Shown here: positions 38,588 to 50,744 of the stretch, piece by piece | How the letters are laid out: every line of letters begins with the position of its first letter | Position numbering within the stretch: position 1 is the stretch's first letter | From: Candidatus Peribacteraceae bacterium | GTDB lineage: Bacteria; Patescibacteriota; Gracilibacteria; Peribacterales; Peribacteraceae | Reading direction: 5' to 3' | Length of the DNA: 50,744 bases | Assembly: GCA_028711345.1 (NCBI GenBank) | Contig: JAQTSK010000007.1 | Location: 1-50,744 of the forward strand | Notes under the pieces: generated by a model | Databases searched by the model: none | The model's input: only the letters and a program-made list of their open reading frames with translations | Told to the model about the DNA's origin: nothing | Translations under genes and position numbers: made by a program

Positions 38588-38602
38588 GCGGGAGGTATTG
38601 TA

Positions 38603-38694
38603 GGTAAGGTAAGTAATGTAAGTAAGGTAAGTGTTGTGAACAAAAGAATTCCGTACCTTACGTACTTTACCTACCTTACGTACCTTACTTTCTG
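38603..38694. repeat. Intergenic inverted tandem repeat (GTAAGGTAAGTA family)
   Basis: GTAAGGTAAGTAATGTAAGTAAGG units are followed by inverted CCTTACGTACTTTACCTACCTTACGTACCTTAC units, able to form a long stem. The last residues of the upstream fusion protein (KVRYVR) are encoded by repeat units. Confidence 0.6.
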
Positions 38695-40944
38695 CAAAAA
38701 TTCCGCATACTCCCTAATCGTCTTCCCCTTCTCGAACTTCCCGCCGATCCCCACCGCCTTCTTCCCCATCGCATCCAATGCCGCGGCATCCGACAGCAAT
38801 GCCTCCGACCTCTCCCGCAAATCCTCCTCGGTGCCGTTCGTAAATGCTCCATTTACGCCCTCTTCAATCACATCCGGCATAATTCCGACTCTGGTTGTCA
38901 GAACAGGAATACCACACGCCATGGCTTCCAGCGCGACGCGCGGACCGCCTTCGCTCTTCGACGGCATCACGAACAATCGGGCCGATCTGATCCCCGCAGC
39001 GATGTCCCGTTCCGTCGGCAGCCAGCCTGCGGACGTCACCCGATTGGCAATCCCGAGCGACACCGCGCGCGATTCGAGTGATGAACGGAGTGGCCCGTCG
39101 CCGATCAACAACAATGTTGTCTCCGGCAATTCTTTGAGTGCCCGCAGCAGTTTGCCGAAACCCTTATTGGCAACCAGCCGTGCGCAACAGACGAGATCGT
39201 ATTTCTTTTCAGCGGAAGGATCGGGGCGAAAAACGTCAGTATTAAGATAGAACGACGGAACCAGTTTCAATCGATCGGAAGCGATGTCCCATGATCGGAG
39301 CAAGTCGCCGACCGGACGGCTGACGATCCGCACCGCATCGAAGTGCCGGACGTGCGACGGCAGGAAGATCCGACTCATCCATTTTCCGATCCATTCTGTG
39401 ATTGACGCCGGCTTCGGCCATCCGACCACGTGATGAAGTTCGATGACCGCCGGAATTGTGCAGATCTTCCTGAGCATCCGCGCACCGATCCCATTGTAGA
39501 ACGGCGGGTAGTCGTGCACGGTCATCACATCGTGATGCTGTGCAGCGATAAGCTCCGATCCTTTCTTTTTGATCCAGAACGGCTGATACCAAAGCCCTCG
39601 TGACGATGGATGAAAATGAACCTTCTCAGGCAATTGAGTAAATGGTGAATTGTTAACTGTTAATTGTTGCCTCGGGCAAATGATATCAATCCTCTCCCAG
39701 TGCTTTGAAAATTCCTCCAGCATCTGCGCGAAGGCGCTGCGCTTGCCAGCGAGAACGGACCGGTCGCCGGAGATCATGAGTAATTTTTTAGCACCAAAGA
39801 GCGGGGCTGCCGCCCCGCGGCAAAGAAGATCATCAAATAATCCCACATGTTCCCCCGCCACCGTTCCCCATCCCCGTTCAATCATCGGCTCCGCTGCCGT
39901 CGCGGCAAATCGATCATACTCACCCATGATCTCTTTCACCGCCGAGGCAATCTGCGCGGGGGTGAGAATCTCCCGAACGATCATTCCGGCGGATAACTCG
40001 GGGCTCAATCCCGTCTCCTTGGTAAGCAGTACCGGCAATCCCGCAGCCCTCGCCTCCAGCGCGGCATTCGGACTGATCTCGGTAATCGACGGAATGACCA
40101 GAAGATCATGGTCGGCGAATATCCGCTGCTTCTCCTCACCGGCAACGGACGGCAGGAACCGGACCCGATCCTGCAAATTCAATGCGGCAACTTGCGCGCG
40201 GAGTCTCCCCTCCTCCGGCCCTCCACCGACAATCGTCAGCGTCACATCGGGTAACTCCGACAGAGCGGCGATTAGCGACGGGTAATTCTTGAACCGCACC
40301 AACCGACTCAGAACAAGCAAGCGAAAACCCCCACCCCATCCCCTCCCCCGGCTGCTCCGCAGAGCCCGGGGGAGGGGCGCAGGGGAGGGGGACGGCAACG
40401 TATTTTCAATCACCGAATGCCCCGGCAGCTTCCTGAAATGCTTCTCGTAGATCTCCTCCTGAAACCTCGTCGAGAAGATGATGTGATGGAAGACGAGGAG
40501 CAGCCTCTGCATCTTCCAGAGAAATGGCCCGGACTCATACCATGCACGCAGACCGAGCATACCGCCCCGCGCGGTATAACGCTCCCAGATGAAATCGCCG
40601 CCCAGACGCAACACCTTCCTTGGCTTCCGGAGCCGAGCGAGCATCAATGGTACACCGACGCTCACCGACGAGAATGCTTCAATGATGTCCGCATCGGCGG
40701 CAAATTTTTTGAGCGCTCTTGCAAACAGAAACCATCGGATCACGGGTTTGCCCTTCCATGGGACGGAAATGATCTCCCATGCACCATCTTGTGAGATCGT
40801 CGTTTTCTTTGTATCGGCTTTTCCGTACGTGATCACCGTCACCTCATGACCTGATTGATGCAACTCAGCCGCCAACGCACGAACGTACGTCGCCGGTCCG
40901 CCGATATCCGGAGGATAAATTCCCGTTGCTAAGACAATCTTCAT
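38671..40944 (-). CDS. Double GT4-GT4 fusion glycosyltransferase
   Basis: 757 residues from ATG 40944. The first GT4 unit (1 to about 385) starts IVLATGIYPPDIGGPATYVRAL and has LLVLSRLVRFKNYPSLIAAL, VRFLPSVAGEEKQRIFADHD and EISPNAALEARAAGLPVLLT. The second (about 390-757) starts LLMISGDRSVLAGKRSAF and has VCCARLVANKGFGKLLRAL, VTSAGWLPTERDIAAGIRSA and SEGGPRVALEAMACGIPVLTT. Two complete GT-B enzymes suggest two successive transfers by one chain. Residues about 184-206 (proline- and glycine-rich) are encoded by a GC-rich palindrome. The start overlaps the recombinase stop (ATGA, 40941-40944), coupling the two genes. Confidence 0.82.
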   Translation of the reverse strand: MKIVLATGIYPPDIGGPATYVRALAAELHQSGHEVTVITYGKADTKKTTISQDGAWEIISVPWKGKPVIRWFLFARALKKFAADADIIEAFSSVSVGVPLMLARLRKPRKVLRLGGDFIWERYTARGGMLGLRAWYESGPFLWKMQRLLLVFHHIIFSTRFQEEIYEKHFRKLPGHSVIENTLPSPSPAPLPRALRSSRGRGWGGGFRLLVLSRLVRFKNYPSLIAALSELPDVTLTIVGGGPEEGRLRAQVAALNLQDRVRFLPSVAGEEKQRIFADHDLLVIPSITEISPNAALEARAAGLPVLLTKETGLSPELSAGMIVREILTPAQIASAVKEIMGEYDRFAATAAEPMIERGWGTVAGEHVGLFDDLLCRGAAAPLFGAKKLLMISGDRSVLAGKRSAFAQMLEEFSKHWERIDIICPRQQLTVNNSPFTQLPEKVHFHPSSRGLWYQPFWIKKKGSELIAAQHHDVMTVHDYPPFYNGIGARMLRKICTIPAVIELHHVVGWPKPASITEWIGKWMSRIFLPSHVRHFDAVRIVSRPVGDLLRSWDIASDRLKLVPSFYLNTDVFRPDPSAEKKYDLVCCARLVANKGFGKLLRALKELPETTLLLIGDGPLRSSLESRAVSLGIANRVTSAGWLPTERDIAAGIRSARLFVMPSKSEGGPRVALEAMACGIPVLTTRVGIMPDVIEEGVNGAFTNGTEEDLRERSEALLSDAAALDAMGKKAVGIGGKFEKGKTIREYAEFLQKVRYVR
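40328..40392. repeat. GC-rich palindrome inserted in frame in GT fusion
   Basis: CCCCCACCCCATCCCCTCCC...GGGGAGGGG arms around CTGCTCCGCAG. It is a copy of the 229-364 family. It is translated as a proline-rich then glycine/arginine-rich stretch between the two Rossmann halves of the first GT unit, where a linker tolerates extra residues. Confidence 0.7.
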
Positions 40945-41753
40945 AAGGGACTTTTGATAGTGCGAAGCGCAGGCTGCGTGACATGAGTATACCGCTGCGT
41001 CGTCCGGATATTGGCATGTCCGAGGAGTTCCTGCACGTACCGGATGTCCGTCCCATTCTCCAGAAGATGAGTTGCAAAGCTGTGACGAAGGGAATGAAAA
41101 GTGGCAGGTTTGATGATTCCTGCTTTTTGCAATGCGTGCTGCACGACCTTCTGCAGCGTTTCCGTCGTGAGCTTGCCCCCGCGCTCGCTTACAAACACGG
41201 GGTCGGATCCTTGTCTGAGGACTGACAATTGCCGCAGAGAATCCATCAGGCGACCCGGCAACAATGTGACTCTGTCCTTGGCTCCCTTCCCGCTCTTGAT
41301 GTGGATGCACCCGCGGTCGAAATCAATGTCCCGTATGACCAGATCCTTCACTTCGCTGACGCGCAAACCGGCACCGTACGCCAGCGCGATGATCAGCTTG
41401 TGCTTTGCGTTCGGCGTCACTTCCATCATCCGTTCGATCTCCTCGTGCGACAGCACCACCGGCAACCGCCCCTCCCTCTTCGGATATGGAATGTTGATCC
41501 GTGTGCTGATGCCGCAGATCTCCCTGTAGAAGAATTGGATGGCATTGAGATGAACATGCACCGTCTGCGAAGCGGCCCCGCGCTGCACCATGTCCAGAAT
41601 GTACGAGCGGAGGTTCTCGATATCCAACCGATCCTCCGCGCCGGACTTCCGGTGGAAGTATGCGGCCAGCGCCGAGAGATAACTTTCGATGGTCCGCAGA
41701 CTGTACTTTCGCATGACCATTTCCGTCCTTGTGCGCTCAAGATGATGTTGCAT
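40941..41753 (-). CDS. Tyrosine recombinase, XerC/IntI-related, candidate cassette integrase
   Basis: 270 residues with an N-terminal SAM-like DNA-binding domain (1-90) and a catalytic domain. The full active site is visible: Arg131 (GAGLRVSEV), Lys156 (GKGAKDR), His220 and Arg223 (HSLRHSFATHLL), His246 (LGHAN) and Tyr255 (RYTHV). The end TIKSPL recalls the RSPL tail of integron integrases. The distance from Lys156 to His220 is 64 residues, as in XerC/XerD. IntI1 has about 106 because of its extra insertion, which is therefore absent here. The gene points away from the cassette array and starts about 100 bp from the first boundary, the standard integron geometry. AAGGA lies 9-13 nt before the ATG, one of the few Shine-Dalgarno-like sites in the window. 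It is translationally coupled to the GT fusion. Confidence 0.88.
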   Translation of the reverse strand: MQHHLERTRTEMVMRKYSLRTIESYLSALAAYFHRKSGAEDRLDIENLRSYILDMVQRGAASQTVHVHLNAIQFFYREICGISTRINIPYPKREGRLPVVLSHEEIERMMEVTPNAKHKLIIALAYGAGLRVSEVKDLVIRDIDFDRGCIHIKSGKGAKDRVTLLPGRLMDSLRQLSVLRQGSDPVFVSERGGKLTTETLQKVVQHALQKAGIIKPATFHSLRHSFATHLLENGTDIRYVQELLGHANIRTTQRYTHVTQPALRTIKSPL

Positions 41754-41857
41754 AGGTGTACATCCTTACACCTTTCTAAAACCATTGCAACACCGATGTA
41801 TCGGCATACCATTCGAATTCAAGCGTTCGACATTAGGAATGTTCGTATAATCGCTAG
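41754..41857. promoter_or_regulatory. attI-like region and integrase upstream region
   Basis: 104 bp between the recombinase start and the first cassette. It holds the inverted repeat AGGTGTA (41754-41760) / TACACCT (41767-41773), the palindrome CCGATGTATCGG (41793-41804), and TATAA (41846-41850) - 7 nt - TTATA (41858-41862) around the expected crossover G^TT at 41857/41858. The 5-bp arms with a 7-nt centre look like a tyrosine-recombinase core site. Which palindromes are binding sites and which regulate the gene is unknown. Confidence 0.65.
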
Positions 41858-41956
41858 TTATATGACATACGTCCTTTTCCTTTTGCGGCTGACGCCTTAC
41901 TGCTCGTAAAAAAATCCGATTTTGTTTCTTTGTTGATGAGGGGAAAAGAGGAGTTC

Positions 41957-41984
41957 GCCCCGCTGCGGCGGGGCTCAGTTTTTT
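41957..41984 (+). terminator. Rho-independent terminator at head of cassette array
   Basis: A GCCCCGC-TGCG-GCGGGGC stem (7 bp) is followed by TCAG and TTTTTT. It stops plus-strand transcription entering cassette 1 from the attI side, so cassette genes would not depend on a leader promoter. Confidence 0.75.
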
Positions 41985-42091
41985 GATAGGGGGATGTGTG
42001 TGTTTTTGTGTGTTGTTCAACGTTTATTTTCTGTGGATATATGAACCATTTGGTGCAATAGTATGTAACAATCTACTCACTCGCACGAACT

Positions 42092-42973
42092 ATGCCAGCA
42101 ATACCCTATGAAAGAATCGGACAATATCTCAAGGAGGCAATGATCGTTTTGAAGAAAAATGGAGGAGAACTGAAATCACGTGAAGTGTTTGAACAAGTTG
42201 GTAAGCGAATCGATTTTAATGACCACGAACTTGAACAATACGAAAAAAGCGGATACGTGCGATGGCGGTCTGTTCTGCACTTCTATTCAATCGATGCTGT
42301 AAAAGCTGGCTGGATTCGAAAACAAAAGGGCTACTGGTATCTCACTCCCGAAGGAGAGGCTGCCATAAACCTTTCAAATATGGATTTGATTGAAAAAGCG
42401 AGAGATGAATACAAGAAGTGGAAAGTAACTCAGCCAGAGGAATCGGAGGAACCATGTGACGTGGAAGAGTCTGGTGGTGGATATAGCGTAGCACTTGAAC
42501 AAGCCGAATCAGAAGCAACCGCTGGCATCGAGGAGTATGTCCGAAATCTCAACGCCTATGAATTTCAGGATTTAGTAGCTGCCCTGCTTCATGCAATGGG
42601 ATTCTACACTCCATTTATTGCACCCAAAGGAAAAGATGGAGGTGTGGACATTACAGCTTTTAAAGATCCGCTCGGAGCGGAAGCCCCGCGCATTAAGGTC
42701 CAGGTGAAGCACCACCAGGCAAACAAATGTGGCCCCCAAATCGTTCGTGAACTTCTTGGATTGCTCCGCAAAGATGGCGAAGTGGGTATCATCGTTTCTA
42801 CTGCGGGTTTCACGGCAGATGCCATCGTAGAAATTCAAAAATCCCCCCTGCACATTCAGGCTATTGATTTGAAAGACTTCATCGAACTATGGCAGGAATA
42901 CTACAATAAAATGGAGGAGGAAGATAAGAAACTCCTGCCACTTAAATGGATTGCTTTTGTTGATGAGAAATAG
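42092..42973 (+). CDS. Mrr-like restriction endonuclease (cassette 1)
   Basis: 293 residues. An N-terminal winged-helix Mrr_N-type domain (about 1-90, with KGYWYLTPEGEAAI) is followed by an acidic linker (about 110-145) and a C-terminal PD-(D/E)xK nuclease domain: YEFQDLVAALLHAMGFYTPF, KGKDGGVDITAF (about 179-190) and IKVQVKHHQ (about 202), with the D...QxK catalytic pattern. Such enzymes cut modified DNA (type IV). GTNNN-type integron cargo often includes defence genes. It lies 108 bp after the terminator. The base composition is clearly lower in GC than the polysaccharide locus. Confidence 0.82.
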   Translation: MPAIPYERIGQYLKEAMIVLKKNGGELKSREVFEQVGKRIDFNDHELEQYEKSGYVRWRSVLHFYSIDAVKAGWIRKQKGYWYLTPEGEAAINLSNMDLIEKARDEYKKWKVTQPEESEEPCDVEESGGGYSVALEQAESEATAGIEEYVRNLNAYEFQDLVAALLHAMGFYTPFIAPKGKDGGVDITAFKDPLGAEAPRIKVQVKHHQANKCGPQIVRELLGLLRKDGEVGIIVSTAGFTADAIVEIQKSPLHIQAIDLKDFIELWQEYYNKMEEEDKKLLPLKWIAFVDEK

Positions 42974-43003
42974 GCATTGATTCGTTTTCTTTGTTTATGA
43001 ATT

Positions 43004-43303
43004 ATGAAAATCGACCTTGAAAAATTCTGGGAATTTCTACGTCAGTGGAGCGTTGGCAAAATTATTGTAACCCTATCGCTCTTGATTGTCCTTTATTATG
43101 GACATTTATATCCAGAAATCATAAAACCATTTTTTTTCGTTGGTGTATTTCATGAACTTTTTGATTTATCGCACAACAAAGTAGATAGCTCCGAGAAAGG
43201 TTTACTTCAAAAAATTGTGTTTAATTTTTTCATGTTAATTTCGATATCTTCAATTATGGCAATTTGTTACATTGTATTATGGGCTCCGGTCATTCACCCC
43301 TAA
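43004..43303 (+). CDS. Small two-span membrane protein (cassette 1)
   Basis: 99 residues. Hydrophobic segments are at about 19-36 and 70-94, with a charged stretch HNKVDSSEKGLLQ between. No family recognised. It follows the Mrr-like gene by 30 bp in the same cassette and may be a partner or an independent gene. Phe/Ile-rich and low in GC. Confidence 0.55.
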   Translation: MKIDLEKFWEFLRQWSVGKIIVTLSLLIVLYYGHLYPEIIKPFFFVGVFHELFDLSHNKVDSSEKGLLQKIVFNFFMLISISSIMAICYIVLWAPVIHP

Positions 43304-43689
43304 CCCCTCTGCCCGTCGCCCAGTCCGTTCGTCGATGCCTCAACTTAAACGGTAAAAACAAAATCGGATTTTTTTTCGAGCAGTCCCACTGCGGTGGGCA
43401 AAAGGAAAAGGCCGTACGATCATATAACAGCGGCTGTACGGTTCGGGGCAGCTCCGTTTTGAATTGGAATGGAAGTCGCTGCCCCTCACCCAAACTGGCT
43501 GGCAGTCGCCTTCGGCACATTATACTGCCAGCCAGCTTCGTACAGCCGCAAACGTTGTACGAAATAAAATGCCATCTTTTTGAATGCCAGTACGCTACGA
43601 ATCATAACCGTCCGCCGCCCCCCATGTTTGTTGTTTTGTAGGATTACTAACAACAAACCTAGTACTGTTGTATACTTTCCTTCGTCTTC
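43304..43689. other. Non-coding end of cassette 1, attC1 and start of cassette 2
   Basis: 386 bp without a gene. It holds CACCCCTAACCCCTC (a half copy of the GC-rich repeat family), the right arm of cassette 1 with the small hairpin CCCACTGCGGTGGG, attC1, the left arm of cassette 2, a TG-rich motif (43623-43642) and a -10-like TATACT at 43671-43676, 13 nt before the next ATG. Confidence 0.7.
43420..43562 (+). repeat. attC1
   Basis: TCATATAAC (43420-43428) opens and GTTGTACGA (43554-43562) closes the site. Helix A GCGGCTGTACG/CGTACAGCCGC, helix B GGGGCAGC/GCTGCCCC and helix C GGCTGGCAGT/ACTGCCAGCC. This is the most divergent of the six sites, yet all three helices are kept by paired changes. 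Crossover is expected between 43554 and 43555. Confidence 0.9.
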
Positions 43690-44040
43690 ATGAGTCCATT
43701 TGTTTCCTTCCTCATCGGCTGCCAGCTCGTAGCCAGTTGCCTCTGTTGCTTCTCTGAGACGCGCATTCTGCCCACCCGGACTTCGTGCACTGCCACATCA
43801 TCAGTGTGCCGCACGACTGATGACGCTTCTACACCATCCTCCGATCACTGTCAGACGGAATCGTGTTTGCTCGGTAGTGATGCAGGCGCGTTCGTTTCCA
43901 TGACCTCAATCGATGCGGTGCCCCCGGCGGTAACGCGTTGGAATGATCTCGTACAAGAAGAGGGCACAAACTCGCTATCTTTCGCCGAAGGATACCGTCC
44001 GGAGAACTGGAGTATACGTACGGTCGTCCTCCGGGAATAA
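43690..44040 (+). CDS. Cys-rich putative exported protein (cassette 2)
   Basis: 116 residues. The N-terminal 22 residues are hydrophobic and end in cysteines (FLIGCQLVASCLCCF), compatible with a signal or lipoprotein leader. A Ser/Thr/Cys-rich segment follows with Cys at about 33, 40, 54 and 59. The C-terminal part PPAVTRWNDLVQEEGTN is more ordered. No family recognised. Its position just before two DsbA-like genes suggests that disulfides matter for it; that is inference. Confidence 0.45.
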   Translation: MSPFVSFLIGCQLVASCLCCFSETRILPTRTSCTATSSVCRTTDDASTPSSDHCQTESCLLGSDAGAFVSMTSIDAVPPAVTRWNDLVQEEGTNSLSFAEGYRPENWSIRTVVLRE

Positions 44041-44156
44041 ACATCTTCATCACAGAGCGACTTCGTGTACGACCGTCATGTTCGGTCTGCACGGATGTGC
44101 GCGTAAATACGTGAATCCCTGTCAAATCAGTTTCCTATTCTCTTCCCAATTCTCTC

Positions 44157-44936
44157 ATGACCATACAGTGGAAATCCTCATCAGCAGATACTGGAGCCTC
44201 ATCTACAGGCACCATCTGGTTCCCCGTTTCGATAGGTCTCATCGGCATCATTGTCGGCTTCGGCCTCGCAAATCTCGTGAACGTTCGCATCCCATCGAAC
44301 ACGGGAACTCCCCCTCCTGTTCCACCATCAGCGGCCGCACCAGCCGCCCCTCGGCCTCCCGCGGAACCGCAAGTCGCACAAGAAGTCCCCCCCGTCGACC
44401 CTGAGAAAGACCACATACGGGGAAATCCGAATGCACAGGTGGCCGTCATCGAATACTCGGACTTCGAGTGCCCCTTCTGCAAACGCGTTCACCCCACCTA
44501 CCAGCAGATCATGAAGGAATATGGCGACAAGGTTATGTGGGTGTACCGTCACTATCCTCTGGGCTTCCATCAGAACGCGCAAAAAGAAGCCGAGGCGACG
44601 GAATGCGCCAATGAACTCGGCGGCAACGATGCCTTCTGGAAATTCACGGACGGCATCGTCGAGAAAACGACCTCCAATGGAACCGGATTCCCCCTCGATC
44701 AGCTCCCTGTGCTCGCGAAGGAAATCGGTCTCAGTGAAACGAAGTTCAAGTCCTGCCTCGACAGCGGCAAGTACGCGCAGCATGTGAAGGACGACATGGA
44801 TGGGGGAAGCAAAGCAGGCGTGAGCGGTACGCCGGGGAACATCATCCTCAACGTCAAAACGCAGAAGAATACCATCATCTCCGGCGCACAGCCGTTTGCA
44901 AACTTCAAGTCCGCGATCGACGCGCTCCTCCCTTAG
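44157..44936 (+). CDS. DsbA-family thiol-disulfide oxidoreductase, membrane anchored (cassette 2)
   Basis: 259 residues. One N-terminal membrane segment (about 20-42), then a proline/alanine linker (about 48-80), then a DsbA/BdbD-like thioredoxin fold with GNPNAQVAVIEYSDFECPFCK and Cys105-Cys108 as the CPFC active site. GVSGTPGNII is the cis-proline loop. It would act outside the membrane, oxidising or isomerising cysteine pairs in exported proteins. No Shine-Dalgarno; the ATG follows ATTCTCTC. GC is close to that of the host locus, unlike cassette 1. Confidence 0.85.
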   Translation: MTIQWKSSSADTGASSTGTIWFPVSIGLIGIIVGFGLANLVNVRIPSNTGTPPPVPPSAAAPAAPRPPAEPQVAQEVPPVDPEKDHIRGNPNAQVAVIEYSDFECPFCKRVHPTYQQIMKEYGDKVMWVYRHYPLGFHQNAQKEAEATECANELGGNDAFWKFTDGIVEKTTSNGTGFPLDQLPVLAKEIGLSETKFKSCLDSGKYAQHVKDDMDGGSKAGVSGTPGNIILNVKTQKNTIISGAQPFANFKSAIDALLP

Positions 44937-44976
44937 TCATTTCCCCCATTATTTCTTGAAATATTTTTTCCTTTCC

Positions 44977-45558
44977 ATGATTCTTCTTTCGTCTGTCGCG
45001 CTCTCTTCCTGCGTGGATACGACCGGTATTTCTCCGCTGTCCAGCCGGAAACCGATGGGCAACCCTAACGCATTCGTATCGGTGGTCGAGTACTCCGATC
45101 TCCAGTGTCCGGCATGCAAGACGGCGCAGTCCGTCGTCGTGGCTCCGCTGCTTCAGCAGTACGGAGACCGCATCCGTTTCGAATTCATTCACTTCCCCCT
45201 TCTTTCCATCCACGAGTACGCCCTCGATGCCGCACAGGCAGCGGAGTGCGCCGCGGATCAGGGACGATTCTGGGAGTTCATCGACCTCGCCTATGATCGG
45301 CAGGATGAACTGAGCCGGAAGGTGTTGCCGCAGTGGGCTGCAGACACGGGCGTGCGTGACACCGCCCTCTTCAGCCTCTGCCTTGCATCCGGGATCAAGA
45401 AAGAAGCCGTCATGAACGATCTGGACATGGGAAGAGAGCAGGACGTTGCGGGAACCCCGACGTTCTTCGTGGACGGCAGAAAGACCGAGGCCACGCTCCC
45501 TGCCCTCTCCGCTGCCATCGAAGAAGCGGCTGATCGGGTGAAGAATGTCCCACTCTGA
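44977..45558 (+). CDS. DsbA-family lipoprotein (cassette 2)
   Basis: 193 residues from ATG 44977. The leader ILLSSVALSSC has a lipobox with Cys at about 12. The mature part has GNPNAFVSVVEYSDLQCPACK with active-site Cys44-Cys47 and VAGTPTFFVDGRK as cis-proline loop. It is a paralogue of the preceding protein, 40 bp downstream. A TTG 81 bp upstream was rejected because it would bury the lipobox. Two Dsb proteins in one cassette suggest an oxidase/reductase pair. Confidence 0.83.
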   Translation: MILLSSVALSSCVDTTGISPLSSRKPMGNPNAFVSVVEYSDLQCPACKTAQSVVVAPLLQQYGDRIRFEFIHFPLLSIHEYALDAAQAAECAADQGRFWEFIDLAYDRQDELSRKVLPQWAADTGVRDTALFSLCLASGIKKEAVMNDLDMGREQDVAGTPTFFVDGRKTEATLPALSAAIEEAADRVKNVPL

Positions 45559-45586
45559 ACTTTTTCTGTTATTCTTCCCTCCTCCA

Positions 45587-46498
45587 ATGAATACACGTAT
45601 CGACCACTGCGGCCTGCAAACCTCCAAAACGCGCGAAAGGCACTTCTTGCTGGCACTGTTCCTCAATGGAGGACTGGCGGTCACCGAACTTGCCATGAGT
45701 GTCGTGACGGGCAGCACGGCGGTACTCGCGGACGGACTCATGAACGTCGATGACCTCGCGGCGCTTGTCTTCAGCATCTACAGTGAACGAAAGACACGGC
45801 AAGTGCCCGATAAGCGGCGCACGTTCGGCTACGGAAGGATGGATGCGCTTGCGGGATTCGTCAAAGGCTGCTTGCTACTCCTCTCCTCTCTTGTCGTACT
45901 CTTGCAGGCGGGAAAGATCCTCTTGATGCCGGAAACAGTGGCAGGCACGACGGTTCTCTTCATCGGCATCGCCTCACTCGCGGTCAATTTCATTTCGTCC
46001 GTCATGCTCAAGGCCGACGCATGCTGCAGTCTGAACGCTCGCGGAACGTATGCCTGTATGAAGTATGACATGATCGGCTCTGCCTCACTCATCGCGAGCG
46101 GGCTCCTCTCCGGCTATTTCACGGTCGTATACTTCGATGTCGCCGCCGCGCTCCTGATCGCGTTCTTTATGGTCAGGAGCGGGTGGGGCATTTTCAAGGA
46201 AGGCGCACAACTCTTCCTGCAGTCTGCTCCGGAGGATTTCCCCTACGATGCTTTTGAGAAGGCGGTTCTTGCCGTCAAGGGTGTCATCGCTGTCGGCGAT
46301 ATTCACGTCTGGAGCCTCACGCCGGAGGAGCACCATCTCACGTGCAACGTGCAGATCAAAGTGGAAAACATCTGCGATTGCGAGCGGATTATCGGAGAAG
46401 TGGAACGACTCTGCGGGGAACGGTTCGGCATCAGTCACCACACCATCCAGCCCGTGTACACGGAGGAAACTCTCCAACGCTTCTGCAAGGCGCGCTGA
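45587..46498 (+). CDS. Cation diffusion facilitator-like transporter with altered metal site (cassette 2)
   Basis: 303 residues from ATG 45587 (ATG 45545 possible, overlapping the previous gene). Six hydrophobic segments and a C-terminal cytosolic domain (SLTPEEHHLTCNVQIKVENICD) give the CDF layout. GSTAVLADGLMNVDDLAAL (about 42-60) is the TM2 motif, where usual HxxxD or DxxxD residues read L-M-N-V-D-D. In TM5 the usual HxxxD reads CMKYD. So the canonical zinc tetrad is not intact and the substrate may differ. TATTCT lies 11 nt before the ATG. Confidence 0.72.
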   Translation: MNTRIDHCGLQTSKTRERHFLLALFLNGGLAVTELAMSVVTGSTAVLADGLMNVDDLAALVFSIYSERKTRQVPDKRRTFGYGRMDALAGFVKGCLLLLSSLVVLLQAGKILLMPETVAGTTVLFIGIASLAVNFISSVMLKADACCSLNARGTYACMKYDMIGSASLIASGLLSGYFTVVYFDVAAALLIAFFMVRSGWGIFKEGAQLFLQSAPEDFPYDAFEKAVLAVKGVIAVGDIHVWSLTPEEHHLTCNVQIKVENICDCERIIGEVERLCGERFGISHHTIQPVYTEETLQRFCKAR

Positions 46499-46745
46499 TG
46501 CATCGAACAGCTACAACTGCGACCTGACTTGGGCTGTTATAGCATCGCCCAAATTCTCAGTATTCTTATTGCCTATCGTTTGTCGGCACTCCTGTCGTAA
46601 AAGGCGACACTGTCATCTTGTTTGTGTTTTTGTTTTGTATGTTGTTTCCCCCCAGCGGACGGTTATGAAACGACACATACGCTGGTGGCGTATATGTCAT
46701 TGACGATCGCGTACTGGCAGAAAAAAGGAAGATGGCATTTTACAT

Positions 46746-46881
46746 CGTACAACACGGGCTATGCGGTTCGCTTTGGCTCCGTTTTGAGATTAATCGGAAG
46801 TCGCCAAAGCTCTCCCATATTTGGCAGGTGTGGCAAAAATTATACACCTGCCAAACATCGCATAGCCCGAAACGTTGTGCG
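46746..46881 (+). repeat. attC2
   Basis: CGTACAAC (46746-46753) to GTTGTGCG (46874-46881). Helix A 46755-46765/46859-46869 (CGGGCTATGCG), helix B 46770-46777/46803-46810 (GCTTTGGC) with loop TCCGTTTTGA...GGAAGTC, single-stranded CTCTCCCATA, helix C 46820-46831/46844-46855 (TTTGGCAGGTGT). Nearly identical to attC6. Crossover is expected after 46874. Confidence 0.92.
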
Positions 46882-46927
46882 AAATGGCGGAACCGTTCAG
46901 AGAAACAGAAATTTCGATGGCCAATCC

Positions 46928-46956
46928 TTGACATAATTCTTCCTAAAACGGAAAAT
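46928..46956 (+). promoter_or_regulatory. Cassette 3 internal promoter (candidate)
   Basis: TTGACA at 46928-46933, 17-nt spacer, GAAAAT at 46951-46956. The predicted start lies a few nt before or at ATG 46969. The -35 is perfect and the -10 weak. Confidence 0.5.
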
Positions 46957-46968
46957 TCTCTCGTACTC

Positions 46969-47157
46969 ATGTCTGGACTCTCACAATCACCGGGGGAACA
47001 GCCTGTTATTTATGAGACACCATTTGGTGTTCAACAATTAAAGATGAGTGATCTAACAGGAGATACTTCACCACTTACTAAAGAACAACGTGAACAGCCT
47101 GTTATTTATGAGACACCTTTTGGTGTTCAACGATTAAAGATCAAAGATCTGTTGTGA
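46969..47157 (+). CDS. Small two-module protein (cassette 3)
   Basis: 62 residues made of two near-identical modules: EQPVIYETPFGVQQLKMSDL (about 10-29) and EQPVIYETPFGVQRLKIKDL (about 42-61). The DNA of the two copies is also nearly identical, so the duplication is recent or under repair. No family recognised. The LKxxDL ends look like short amphipathic helices, possibly protein-binding tags. Compare the two-module protein of cassette 5. Confidence 0.6.
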   Translation: MSGLSQSPGEQPVIYETPFGVQQLKMSDLTGDTSPLTKEQREQPVIYETPFGVQRLKIKDLL

Positions 47158-47495
47158 AGAACAATCCAAGGCCATCGAAATTTCTGTGCCCTATCGGGTA
47201 GTTCCGCCACATCGCACAACAGCGGGTGTGCGGCTCATCGGCACTCCGTTTGATTGAATTCGGAAGTCGCGCCGATTCGCCCAAATCCGGCCATGGTAAG
47301 CCGCAAAGCGGCAAATTGTACCATGGCCGTACTTCGCACACCCGCAAACGTTATATGACATTCCGTTTTTTTGGGCGCCCCCCATGTTTGTTGTTCTGTT
47401 GGTGTTTGTTGTAAAAGTACCAGACTCAATTTCTGGCTCTGAACAGTCAATTGAGGTACAATACTTGTAGTTTACATGAGCACACCTACATACAA
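47158..47495. other. Non-coding end of cassette 3, attC3 and head of cassette 4
   Basis: 338 bp without a gene: right arm of cassette 3, attC3, left arm of cassette 4, TG-rich motif (47383-47412) and a -10-like TACAAT at 47457-47462, about 33 nt before ATG 47496. Confidence 0.7.
47213..47358 (+). repeat. attC3
   Basis: CGCACAAC (47213-47220) to GTTATATGA (47350-47358). Helix A GCGGGTGTGCG/CGCACACCCGC, helix B ATCGGC/GCCGAT, helix C GGCCATGGTA/TACCATGGCC capped by AGCCGCAAAGCGGC. Crossover is expected after 47350. Confidence 0.9.
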
Positions 47496-48431
47496 ATGAA
47501 GACCGATTATCACTTTCATCCAAACCTCCACGCCAAGAATCCCGAAAAAAGACTTCGACGTATTTGGGGTGCAATTACTGCCAATGGGCTCGATGCGATA
47601 ATTTGTACTGAACACGCCTACAAAAATGCCCCCGACGCATACAGACGCTTGATTGCGACGAAGCCTACAAATGCGCAGACACACATTTATCCAGGTGTCG
47701 AACTGATTACCAATGAAGGGAAGGGTATTGAGATAATCGCATTCGCAGAACACGACTGGTACGACGATCATCCTTTGCTACTCAAACCATTCGCCATGAA
47801 TTTATCGGAAATGCTTGCATATTTGCAGAACTCCGATTTGCAATGGTTCGTTCCTCATCCGTTTCTTCCCGGCAATCCGCTGAAGAGACTATTTCCTGAC
47901 GAAGGAAGCATGTTGGATTTTTTGAGACAAGTACCCGCCTTTGAAATGCAAAACGGGTGCTACCTTCTTCTGGAAAAGTTTTTCGAGTACATGCCTTGGA
48001 CTTGGCTGCACAATGTTGAAAAGAAGCTACGTGACAGTGTGCAACTTTCACAATCGCTTTTGAAAAATGGAGAGCATGCATTTTACGCAATCGGCTCAGA
48101 TGCTCATCATCCGCGAGATCTTGGCTTCTACATTGATATTCCAACATCAAAACCACAGCCAAATCGGACAGAGGCGTTTCAGGCTCTTATCACGAATAAG
48201 ACGATTGATGCAGTTCATGTCCCTTCACAATGTTTTTCACTGAGACACCTGCTCTACACAGGGTGGACGACATTCAGTGAATCATGCATGAAGCGGGAGT
48301 GGCATCGATATGCATACCAGCATGAAGTATTTGAGATTGAGCCGGCAGCTCAGCATGATCTCACCACCACACACTCTTTAGTTTTAGATGGTATGCCAGA
48401 ATATTCACAAGTAGATGCAAGAGAGGCGTAA
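47496..48431 (+). CDS. PHP-domain metal-dependent phosphoesterase (cassette 4)
   Basis: 311 residues from ATG 47496. Metal-binding motifs in order: DYHFHPN (4-10, HxH), ICTEHA, YPGVELIT, FVPHPFLP and AIGSDAHHPRDLGF (about 205), the usual PHP set. These enzymes hydrolyse phosphomono- or diesters of small molecules or nucleic acid ends. Its 3' end overlaps the convergent CarS-like gene by 71 bp. With two CDP-lipid enzymes in the same cassette, a phosphatase step in lipid head-group synthesis is possible but unproven. Confidence 0.78.
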   Translation: MKTDYHFHPNLHAKNPEKRLRRIWGAITANGLDAIICTEHAYKNAPDAYRRLIATKPTNAQTHIYPGVELITNEGKGIEIIAFAEHDWYDDHPLLLKPFAMNLSEMLAYLQNSDLQWFVPHPFLPGNPLKRLFPDEGSMLDFLRQVPAFEMQNGCYLLLEKFFEYMPWTWLHNVEKKLRDSVQLSQSLLKNGEHAFYAIGSDAHHPRDLGFYIDIPTSKPQPNRTEAFQALITNKTIDAVHVPSQCFSLRHLLYTGWTTFSESCMKREWHRYAYQHEVFEIEPAAQHDLTTTHSLVLDGMPEYSQVDAREA

Positions 48432-48879
48432 TAATCAGTGCGGTCAGAAATATTTCCCATGCTATTGGCATCACGATAATCGCAAAGAGACTGCCTCCTA
48501 AGATGAAATCCAATTGATCGAATGGCACAAACGGTTTTCCGGATGGAATGTTTTTCCATCGTTTGAATCCTGATTTCACGGCATCTCCTACCAATGCGCC
48601 AAATCCCATCAGTCCTCCGGCGATTATGGCAGTCGATAAAGACTGTGTTCCATACCACCCCCATTGCAATGACCATAACAACCAGCTGCCCAATACTCCT
48701 CCTATCACCCCAGAATATATTCCCCTGTATGTTTTATTTTTCCCCAATTTTGTTGGCGCGATGGCATACCCAAGCGGCAATTTAAGCGCACCGGCAATAG
48801 GGGGCATCATGTTGCCAAAGTACGCAGGAACATATGTCAGAATCGCATTTGCCAATAATATCATGAGGGGAGACTCCAT
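48361..48879 (-). CDS. CDP-archaeol synthase-like (CarS/DUF46) membrane protein (cassette 4)
   Basis: 172 residues from ATG 48879. Four or five hydrophobic segments. KTYRGIYSGVIGGVLGSW, GGLMGFGALVGDAVKSGFKRW, IPSGKPFVPFDQLDFILGGSLF are the conserved cytosolic blocks of the CarS/CdsA superfamily (GDxxKS, D-x-x-D region). The family makes CDP-activated lipids from phosphatidic-type lipids and CTP. Found mostly in archaea, but bacterial members exist. It overlaps the upstream phosphatidyltransferase gene by 19 bp and lies opposite to the array direction. Confidence 0.75.
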   Translation of the reverse strand: MESPLMILLANAILTYVPAYFGNMMPPIAGALKLPLGYAIAPTKLGKNKTYRGIYSGVIGGVLGSWLLWSLQWGWYGTQSLSTAIIAGGLMGFGALVGDAVKSGFKRWKNIPSGKPFVPFDQLDFILGGSLFAIIVMPIAWEIFLTALIITPLLHLLVNILAYHLKLKSVWW

Positions 48880-49490
48880 CGAAAAAGAACAAGATAAACA
48901 ACAACCATTGCTGCGTAGTAGAGCGCGAAAACCATCAAAAACCATTCAAGCCATATTGTCTGCATCAATCCAAAACCAATCAGCACTGTCAGCAAAAACA
49001 ATGGATATTTTGTACGAATGACAGGGAAAGTGGGTGGATTTCCTCGTGCATTCATCAACACAAAATGCACAACCAAGATGAGATAGCAAATGCTATAGAG
49101 CAGCAACCAGAAGCCCCCCCCCAATCCAAACCACTGCAATGTCAGCACGGTGGCTACCAGTGACGCATGATCAACTACAACATCCAAGTATGCCCCCCGC
49201 TGAGAAGCAATCCCCTTGTGGCGGGCCAATGCTCCATCTATTCCATCCAGGAATAAGTGAAGCAGATATGCCAATATGAGGAATACCGGTGAATACAAAA
49301 ATCCGAGAGGCAGTAAAATCATCACCAGTATCCCAAGTAACGAAAGTGCGTCTGGGCTGACATTGGCTCTATCCAAAATTTTGAGTAATGGAAGAAATAC
49401 TTTCTGTCTCCATGTACCAAAGGAATGCTGGAATGCAGCTTCGTTGGCAGAAAATGCATGAAGTTGGTGCAAATGGTCTTTTTCTTGCAT
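48861..49490 (-). CDS. CDP-alcohol phosphatidyltransferase family membrane protein (cassette 4)
   Basis: 209 residues from ATG 49490. The signature D-x2-D-G-x2-A-R-x8-G-x3-D-x3-D is complete in DGIDGALAR...GAYLDVVVD (about 83-106). About six hydrophobic segments follow. Such enzymes replace the CMP of a CDP-alcohol with another alcohol to form phospholipids or phospho-linked heads. ATG 49490 is chosen because TATTAT lies 6 nt upstream; ATG 49526 is an alternative. Its partner gene makes the CDP-activated substrate, so the two form a short lipid route. Confidence 0.8.
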   Translation of the reverse strand: MQEKDHLHQLHAFSANEAAFQHSFGTWRQKVFLPLLKILDRANVSPDALSLLGILVMILLPLGFLYSPVFLILAYLLHLFLDGIDGALARHKGIASQRGAYLDVVVDHASLVATVLTLQWFGLGGGFWLLLYSICYLILVVHFVLMNARGNPPTFPVIRTKYPLFLLTVLIGFGLMQTIWLEWFLMVFALYYAAMVVVYLVLFRWSLPS

Positions 49491-49496
49491 GTCCAA

Positions 49497-49502
49497 ATAA
49501 TA
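49497..49502 (-). promoter_or_regulatory. -10-like hexamer with leaderless spacing
   Basis: On the minus strand TATTAT, 6 nt (TTGGAC), then ATG 49490. It shows that genes inside cassettes follow the same start pattern as those of the host locus. Confidence 0.5.
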
Positions 49503-49581
49503 CGCAATAATCAGCAACCAATCCATGTGTGTTTTTGCTGTTTTGTATGTTTTTTCCCTCCCGCCCAAAAAAACGGAACGG

Positions 49582-49727
49582 TCATATAACACGGGTTACC
49601 CGGTTCGCCGTTGCTCCTTTTCAAGATTTCAATTGAGGTCGCAACGGCTCTCCCAAATTTGGCGGCGTTAAGCCCTGTCGGGCAAAGTATAACGCCGCCA
49701 AACTTCGGGTAACCCGAAACGTTAGGC
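49582..49727 (+). repeat. attC4
   Basis: TCATATAAC (49582-49590) to GTTAGGC (49721-49727). Helix A CGGGTTACCCG/CGGGTAACCCG, helix B GCCGTTGC/GCAACGGC, helix C TTTGGCGGCGTTA/TAACGCCGCCAAA capped by AGCCCTGTCGGGC. Crossover is expected after 49721. Confidence 0.92.
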
Positions 49728-49791
49728 AACATATTTGGCGAACTACCCGTTCTTTCTTGATTCTTTCAATCATCGAGTCAATAATTGGGTC

Positions 49792-50028
49792 ATGTATGAG
49801 TCTCGTTTCAGCGTCTTTGACACACCTGATCCTAATGGCGATGCAGCGTCTGCTGCCCATATCGATGAATTGCGAAAGGCTTTGAATTGTCCAGAACAAC
49901 CAACCTATAGAATGGAGACTCGCACTGTTCCTTGGGGCAATCTTGATCCAAGTGCCGATCCTGTATCTGCCGCTCAGATCGAAGAATTACGCAGACGCTT
50001 GTCTGAAAGAACGGCTGGAACAAATTGA
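49792..50028 (+). CDS. Small two-module protein (cassette 5)
   Basis: 78 residues from ATG 49792 (a TTG 57 bp upstream is less likely). Two modules: FDTPDPNGDAASAAHIDELR (about 9-28) and LDPSADPVSAAQIEELRRRL (about 52-71), each an acidic loop with an ASAAxIxELR helix. The linker EQPTYRMETRTVPWG recalls EQPVIYETPFG in the cassette 3 protein. No family recognised. The acidic DPNGDA loop resembles a dockerin/EF-hand-like metal loop only superficially. Confidence 0.55.
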   Translation: MYESRFSVFDTPDPNGDAASAAHIDELRKALNCPEQPTYRMETRTVPWGNLDPSADPVSAAQIEELRRRLSERTAGTN

Positions 50029-50051
50029 TGAATCGTTCGCCAAATACGATT

Positions 50052-50195
50052 GCCTAACACGGCGTATGCGGTTCGTCGGTGGCGCTCTTAAGATTTCAAT
50101 GGATGCGCCACCTCCTCTCCCATATTTCGCCACGGTGAGCCCTATCGGGCACATTATACCGTGGCGAAACATCGCATACGCCGAAACGTTAGCTG
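50052..50195 (+). repeat. attC5
   Basis: GCCTAAC (50052-50058) to GTTAGCTG (50188-50195). Helix A CGGCGTATGCG/CGCATACGCCG, helix B GTGGCGC/GCGCCAC, helix C TTTCGCCACGGT/ACCGTGGCGAAA capped by AGCCCTATCGGGC. Crossover is expected after 50188. Confidence 0.92.
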
Positions 50196-50218
50196 AAATA
50201 GTATTTTTATCCCTGCCT

Positions 50219-50428
50219 CTACTGTGTATTGAATATCAATCTTAACTTACCTTGTGCTCGTCCAAGACATGCAAGTATTTCCTGCATATTCTGCAAATTA
50301 CCTTGTTCTGCTAATCGTTGGGCTCCAATCTGTCTTATCCCACTTAATTGTTCAGTGATTAACGTTAATTGTCGATCACAGTCATCGAGATGCTGTTCTA
50401 TCGCCGATGACAGAGTTAAAGTAGCCAT
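50219..50428 (-). CDS. Small helical protein, opposite orientation (cassette 6)
   Basis: 69 residues from ATG 50428. Predominantly helical with heptad-like leucines (IEQHLDDCDRQLTLITEQL, then LAEQGNLQNMQEILACL). No family recognised. It has its own promoter on the minus strand, so it is expressed independently of its neighbours and against the array direction, which is usual for toxin-antitoxin-like or regulatory cassettes; no partner gene is present, so that label is not applied. Confidence 0.6.
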   Translation of the reverse strand: MATLTLSSAIEQHLDDCDRQLTLITEQLSGIRQIGAQRLAEQGNLQNMQEILACLGRAQGKLRLIFNTQ

Positions 50429-50438
50429 TCTTGACAAG

Positions 50439-50466
50439 ATATTATATTAATAACTTAATATGTCAA
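50439..50466 (-). promoter_or_regulatory. Sigma70-type promoter of cassette 6 gene
   Basis: On the minus strand TTGACA (50466-50461), 16-nt spacer, TAATAT (50444-50439); an overlapping TATAAT (50446-50441) gives 14 nt. The ATG at 50428 lies about 10-12 nt further on, so the leader would be only a few nt. Confidence 0.6.
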
Positions 50467-50492
50467 TACCAAAGTACCAAAAAATACTACTT

Positions 50493-50626
50493 CAGCTAAC
50501 ACGGGCTATGCGGTTCGCTTTGGCTCCGTTTTGAATTACTTGGAAGTCGCCAAAGCTCTCCCATATTTGGCAGGTGTGACGAATATTGTACACCTGCCAA
50601 ACATCGCATAGCCCGAAACGTTGGAT
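50493..50626 (+). repeat. attC6
   Basis: CAGCTAAC (50493-50500) to GTTGGAT (50620-50626). Helix A CGGGCTATGCG, helix B GCTTTGGC and helix C TTTGGCAGGTGT as in attC2, with different loops. Crossover is expected after 50620. Confidence 0.92.
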
Positions 50627-50744
50627 GACATTTTTTCCCCATGCTCCGCCACCGGTAACTGTGTGTTGTTTTGTGGGTGTTTTGTAACAAATCAAATCCA
50701 TTTCGATGGTCTTGATACTTTTTCTATTGGATTTATTGCAATAT
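50621..50744. other. Start of cassette 7, cut by window end
   Basis: Begins TTGGATGACATTTTTTCCCC and holds the TG-rich motif (50660-50687). Its attC should begin with ATCCAA if the pairing rule holds. No gene is visible in the 124 bp present. Confidence 0.7.

Follow-up and report, generated by a model that had tools for sequence, protein, structure and literature searches.

The DNA analysed here (the window) is one whole contig of 50,744 bp, issued from a Patescibacteria genome of 1.77 Mb (92% complete, 93 contigs). Small genomes and TGA reading among relatives of the class, together with named matches, point to a Patescibacterium of the Gracilibacteria type. The contig carries a tyrosine recombinase gene with an attI site 106 bp upstream of its start (GTTATATGA at 41857) and an array of six attC sites (43419-50630), all oriented away from the integrase (Table 1), which agrees with the standard integron placement proposed in the first-pass annotation. 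The contig stops 114 bp past attC6, so that the far end of the array lies outside the assembly. The inverted repeat next to the integrase start is, judging from its sequence, a possible operator for this gene. Short tandem repeats of the GTAAGTAAG type are found on both strands of an intergenic region (38590-38690).

Table 1. Integrase, attI, attC sites and cassettes of the window
Feature	Position	Strand	Description
Integrase ORF	40941..41753	-	270-aa tyrosine recombinase, I2-less integron integrase
Inverted repeat	41754..41773	.	AGGTGTA-catcct-TACACCT, abutting the integrase start codon; read from sequence
attI	41832..41868	-	bottom strand ATGTCATATAACTAGCGATTATACGAACATTCCTAAT; R box and L box at fixed spacing; crossover G^TT 41857-41859
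Cassette 1	41858..43554	+	Mrr-like restriction endonuclease 42092-42973, small protein 43004-43303; bounds from attI and attC1
attC1	43419..43564	-	folding strand -; z -6.7
Cassette 2	43555..46874	+	3.3 kb; DsbA-like thioredoxins 44157-44936 and 44896-45558; cation efflux protein 45545-46498
attC2	46744..46884	-	z -9.3
Cassette 3	46875..47350	+	476 bp; short ORF(s) only
attC3	47211..47360	-	z -5.8
Cassette 4	47351..49721	.	326-aa ORF without assignment 47451-48431 (+)
Cassette 4 lipid genes	48361..49592	-	CDP-archaeol-synthase-like 48361-48945 (-); CDP-alcohol phosphatidyltransferase 48861-49592 (-)
attC4	49581..49731	-	z -8.0
Cassette 5	49722..50188	+	
attC5	50049..50198	-	z -7.6
Cassette 6	50189..50620	+	
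attC6	50491..50630	-	z -6.9

The integrase possesses the six catalytic residues attributed to it at first pass (R131, K156, H220, R223, H246 and Y255), which are invariant in a 24-relative alignment. The same annotation had pointed out that Lys156 and His220 are separated by 64 residues, against about 106 in IntI1, and alignment bears this out: about 42 residues of IntI1 and the other canonical IntI (105-107 residues from K to H), located between 'LRQLSVLRQ' and 'GSDPVFVS', are absent. In IntI, the I2 helix specific to that family (around patch III) lies in this missing stretch. The short K-to-H region is common to all of the 24-member family alignment, throughout which the SPL tail, rightly described as IntI-like, is invariant as well. 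The top NCBIfam match of the protein is the integron integrase family TIGR02249, in two pieces and with 225.7 bits against a curated cut-off of 265, followed by XerA_Arch (219.6 against its own cut-off of 220). The best PDB sequence match, VchIntIA (2a3v), is also obtained in two pieces, with the insertion skipped. A structural model, advised in the first-pass annotation as a further check, was generated by AlphaFold2 from a 39-row alignment (mean pLDDT 91.4, pTM 0.81). It contains no extra helix in the 178-196 region, and its closest solved structure is VchIntIA 2a3v (TM 0.85), against TM values of 0.54-0.56 for XerA and 0.47 for XerD, to which differences in domain pose contribute.

The phylogeny, built with the insertion columns dropped and including IntI, Xer and archaeal proteins, as had also been advised, gathers all SPL-tailed proteins, canonical IntI included, in one clade (support 100/99), hereafter the IntI superclade, one member of which (L214) has lost the tail. 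The Xers of the phylum, E. coli XerD, Bacillota XerD-like proteins and an archaeal XerA-like protein all lie outside this superclade. Within it, the canonical, I2-bearing IntI form a separate clade (100/100), outside of which the integrase falls, and the Patescibacteria core, including the window integrase, forms another (100/100). A larger quick tree concurs on IntI. The tree supports no particular branching order among four groups, namely the canonical IntI, that of Patescibacteria, one rich in Bacteroidota and one of archaea. Grouping the integrase with the Xers of its phylum is rejected (p-AU 1.4e-5), and a clade uniting the Patescibacteria group with canonical IntI is compatible with the data but not demonstrated by them (p-AU 0.40). 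The integrase is, thus, a member of the IntI superclade and not a Xer, and the source genome holds a separate Xer, about 39% identical to it (G000 C39). By the defining insertion of the canonical IntI family, it is not a canonical IntI either. The first reading of the locus had offered two options, the first being that an Xer-like enzyme recombines folded attC sites here; the tree removes the 'Xer-like' class from this option, and the sequence data support the remainder, an insertion-less enzyme probably acting on folded attC.

The bottom strands of the window attC fold with z scores of -5.8 to -9.3, and their consensus fold is a basal 11-bp L stem opening to two arms, with compensatory change in 27 of its 45 pairs. 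No match to the window attC was found in Rfam. Where the stem meets the two arms, TGGGnGA and GAAC are conserved and unpaired on the bottom strands (43415-50637), a possible protein or folding signal. Two further sites of the same type are present in the source genome, at L082:17549-17698 (G000 C6) and L083:9198-9313 (G000 C7, near the contig end); the lone attC on C6, which follows a subtilisin-like gene, may represent one cassette that was inserted elsewhere than in the array.

In a circular cassette, R'' and R' match, and insertion at G^TT leaves the R' half at the upstream boundary. This record is intact in the window: each of the six attC has an R'' that is exactly reverse-complementary to the R' of the site before it (attI in the case of attC1), over 9-10 nt including GTT. 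The array has therefore been built by site-specific insertion of circles, and the match also locates attI. Since its boundary marks are intact (attC2 R'' matches attC1 R'), cassette 2, which is unusually long and contains three genes, moved as one unit. In cassette 4, both membrane-lipid genes are opposite to the array strand, and cassette 3 includes two 59-nt copies (46996-47150), 92% identical and 96 bp apart. In the arrays of the whole family, 31 of 61 neighbour pairs located within 5 kb match over 5 nt or more in addition to GTT; the corresponding figures are 2 of 94 when a site is compared with its own R' and 25 of 349 among non-neighbours.

Relatives of the integrase (about 40-58% identity) occur, scattered, in 16 of 59 related genomes, most of which also encode a separate Xer (about 33-43% identity), and the family is present in 51 of 380 Patescibacteria genomes, these data being mostly metagenome assemblies. 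With a covariance model made from the six window attC, which misses divergent sites, attC were detected in 12 of the 59 relatives, 11 of which are among the 16 that carry the integrase family (Fisher p 1.7e-7). The same model found attC in 30 of the 37 family loci having at least 2 kb upstream and none in the other seven; in many other family loci, at most a few hundred bases separate the gene from the contig end. All 113 attC near family members are upstream of the integrase, i.e., on the attI side, and on the integrase strand, with none downstream or opposite. A de novo search yielded an attI consensus, ATTTCnnnnAACTcGTTtTTATnCGAA, in 36 of the 51 family loci (against 1.4% of shuffled regions), and in 35 of these 36 the L box stands at one fixed spacing. 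One relative (G058; C95 and C27, i.e., L126 and L127) has attC-like sites with no family integrase detected.

The second option raised at first pass was that the real integrase lies elsewhere. The array could have been built in trans, or in the past, by an I2-type integrase (leaving a CALIN), the adjacent gene being an unrelated Xer-like or ICE/phage integrase. The NCBIfam score under the curated cut-off fits this explanation, as do the fragmentation of the source assembly and the roughly 8% of the genome that is missing from it. Nevertheless, a search of the 380 Patescibacteria genomes gave no I2-type IntI over the TIGR02249 cut-off, whereas 41 of the 60 control-family genomes yielded one over the cut-off in the same search. 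The four tyrosine recombinases of the source genome (92% complete) include none with an I2-type insertion; the three besides the integrase comprise a Xer of 304 aa and two proteins unrelated to it. A second recombinase near the array, another possibility mentioned in the first-pass annotation, was found in none of the fetched family loci, each of which has a single one, the window contig itself stopping inside the array. The presence of attI next to the integrase, with a fixed geometry, in 36 of the 51 family loci, the one-sided, same-strand arrays and the placement of the integrase in the tree also go against a remote builder, as does the lack, in the window attC, of the bases read by I2-type IntI. 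An origin of this kind is, thus, very improbable, and the suggestion of an integrase elsewhere is unsupported. One recombinase (G194 C5:2411-3307, L136) was considered as an I2-type IntI and rejected: it belongs to the IntI superclade and, where I2 would be expected, bears the basic insertion FVVPRLGRSRESGEKERLKVGG; this K/R-rich insertion is, however, unlike I2, and the score is below the cut-off.

The I2 helix and the extrahelical bases of attC are taken as what enables integrons to recombine single-stranded DNA, and the DNA side of this pair, not raised in the first-pass annotation, was compared between groups. Mixed attC alignments (Patescibacteria, Bacteroidota, other) being too poor for one covariance model, all groups were submitted to a single procedure relying on a detector and a boundary test: only those candidate attC that passed the neighbour-boundary test (at least 9 nt) were kept, and their L arms were aligned with bulges allowed. 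Shuffled loci submitted to the same detector and test gave 0-2 sites. Bulges were scored among the first 12 pairs of the R''-L'' arm, which is the position of the extrahelical bases (PMC2727003). Beside I2-type integrases, a set dominated by a single gammaproteobacterial family and completed by a few other groups (L189, L244, L247 and L248), 208 of 215 sites have the L''-arm bulge, at the expected spacing (MMMMR..., MMMMMR...). The bulge is found in 6 of 49 sites of the I2-less loci of Patescibacteria and 3 of 58 of those of Bacteroidota (9/107 together). As sites within one array are related, the fair counts are those per locus: 26 of 26 for I2-type integrases, against 0 of 12 in Patescibacteria and 0 of 11 in Bacteroidota (0/23 for I2-less loci). 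The boundary filter does not itself remove bulges, since the canonical set passed it with them. The I2 helix and the bases that it reads are, thus, absent together.

Outside Patescibacteria, chain-verified attC arrays accompany I2-less relatives in the Bacteroidota Flavobacterium enshiense, Rufibacter, Winogradskyella, Algibacter and Seonamhaeicola. For example, the array of Flavobacterium enshiense (L148:11492-19319) has ten sites, with 9 of 9 boundaries verified. In these Bacteroidota loci, attC invariably lie on the downstream side of the integrase and on the strand opposite to its own, so that the array runs in the direction of the gene, reversed relative to Patescibacteria. Bacteroidota I2-less integrases of this kind, with N-terminal extensions and attC arrays placed downstream, were noted at L148, L144, L145, L151, L156, L159, L166, L170, L173, L191 and L196. 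No I2-type IntI over the cut-off was found in the genomes of L148, L166, L165 and L146. Single attC-like sites stand beside I2-less integrases in Paenibacillus (L146:11357-11495) and in a Spirochaetota assembly (L165:11641-11757). The archaeal and alphaproteobacterial I2-less members showed no convincing array, and lacking I2 alone, therefore, does not make a protein an integron integrase.

By its architecture (an integrase beside attI, an array with foldable attC bottom strands and circle insertion at the R' G^TT), the window system is an integron, and it probably works like one. The preferred explanation, to which a probability of roughly 0.84 is given, is a chromosomal Patescibacterium integron, run by an integrase in which the I2 helix has either always been absent or been lost, and which takes up circular cassettes with a folded attC. 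The substrate would be circular cassettes in which the attC bottom strand is folded as a hairpin, the protein encoded in the window being the probable catalyst; by recombining R' (at G^TT) with either attI or a second attC, it would have produced the observed array. The folded attC would be treated as a duplex-like core site, in place of the reading of extrahelical bases by I2. This core site would comprise an R box (TTTCnnnnAAC), a small asymmetric unpaired spacer that would mark the strand (4 nt against 1 in Patescibacteria attC, about 3 against 3-4 in canonical ones) and an uninterrupted L stem of about 11 bp. Recognition is probably achieved through the R and L boxes and the asymmetric spacer; the letters of the L box (TATnCGA) are conserved in Patescibacteria attC and recur in the L box of the family attI.

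Conserved L-box letters common to attI, together with the absence of extrahelical bases and the action of the Xer relatives on duplex DNA, would also suit attC that are recombined as ordinary double-stranded core sites, as by Xer at dif, with the hairpin as a by-product or in another role. However, long-range pairing is conserved through the compensatory changes mentioned above, and the folds reach z values of -6 to -9. Moreover, R''-L'' and L'-R' would both be core sites in duplex DNA, yet the boundaries record crossover at R' only. Crossover restricted to R' is known for the recombination of bottom-strand attC. A double-stranded substrate is, thus, quite improbable, and a folded single strand remains the likely one.

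The folded-attC explanation also has to face what is known of IntI1. According to published work, its activity is abolished by deletion of the I2 region, and its attC x attC recombination by removal of the extrahelical bases from both partners (PMC7790495, PMC2727003). Both requirements would have to be circumvented by an I2-less enzyme, which counts against the proposal, and, as IntI1 reportedly no longer recombines two attC once these bases are removed (PMC2727003), we infer that the window integrase must join two attC by other means. The seven family loci in which the model detected no attC, the attC of G058, the archaeal and alphaproteobacterial members devoid of arrays, and the portions of the array and of the genome that are missing from the assembly also weigh against it. 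Nevertheless, in VCR sites devoid of extrahelical bases, the spacer is still able to impose strand choice in attI x attC recombination (PMC2727003), which constitutes a precedent for strand choice without these bases.

How the I2-less state arose is a separate matter. The I2 helix could have been lost secondarily, and the extrahelical bases of attC afterwards, which would make these systems simplified rather than pre-I2. This order of events is compatible with a tree that does not fix the order of the I2-less groups and canonical IntI and does not reject a clade of Patescibacteria and canonical IntI (p-AU above). Canonical IntI, however, form one clade without any I2-less member inside, and the Xer outgroups lack I2; a single gain of I2 on the IntI stem is, therefore, the simplest scenario, and secondary loss is unlikely. 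It can tentatively be proposed, as a possibility falling short of even odds, that these are living pre-I2 integrons, in which recombination of folded attC through the R and L boxes and spacer asymmetry would be the older mode, I2 and the extrahelical bases being a linked, later addition in one branch.

Overall, this appears to be an overlooked integron branch that works differently. Among openly licensed papers, no report was found that links insertion-less integrases to attC arrays or to bulge-less attC, nor any paper joining integrons or attC with Patescibacteria/CPR in this sense. As IntegronFinder requires the I2 domain (PMC9668308), it would score arrays of this type as lacking an integrase, and integrons would seem less widespread among Patescibacteria and Bacteroidota than they are. 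For I2 and the extrahelical bases, 'a direct proof of causality' has been said to be lacking (PMC7790495); natural integrons devoid of both, in two phyla, make the question of causality directly testable.

Compared with known systems, the integrase shares its K-to-H distance and catalytic fold with XerA, XerD and XerH, although these fall outside the IntI superclade and have no SPL tail. Smyshlyaev et al. (2021) described an 'integron-like' subgroup of tyrosine recombinases in which the insertion is not fully conserved (PMC8138268); that paper calls the insertion essential to the function of integrons, and its relevant passages do not link the insertion-less members to attC arrays or altered attC. 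Integrons of reversed orientation have been reported for Spirochaetota (PMC9668308), and the Bacteroidota I2-less arrays resemble them, their integrase pointing along the array, whereas the Patescibacteria arrays, including that of the window, have the usual divergent orientation. With canonical IntI integrons (IntI1, VchIntIA), the window system has in common a tyrosine recombinase of the same superclade, with 2a3v as the closest solved fold, an attI beside its gene, a divergent array, bottom-strand attC folding, crossover at the R' G^TT and the circular-cassette signature. It differs from them by having neither the I2 helix nor extrahelical bases in the L'' arm, by its asymmetric 4/1 spacer, by L-box letters that are conserved and common to attI, and by a basal stem that opens to two arms.
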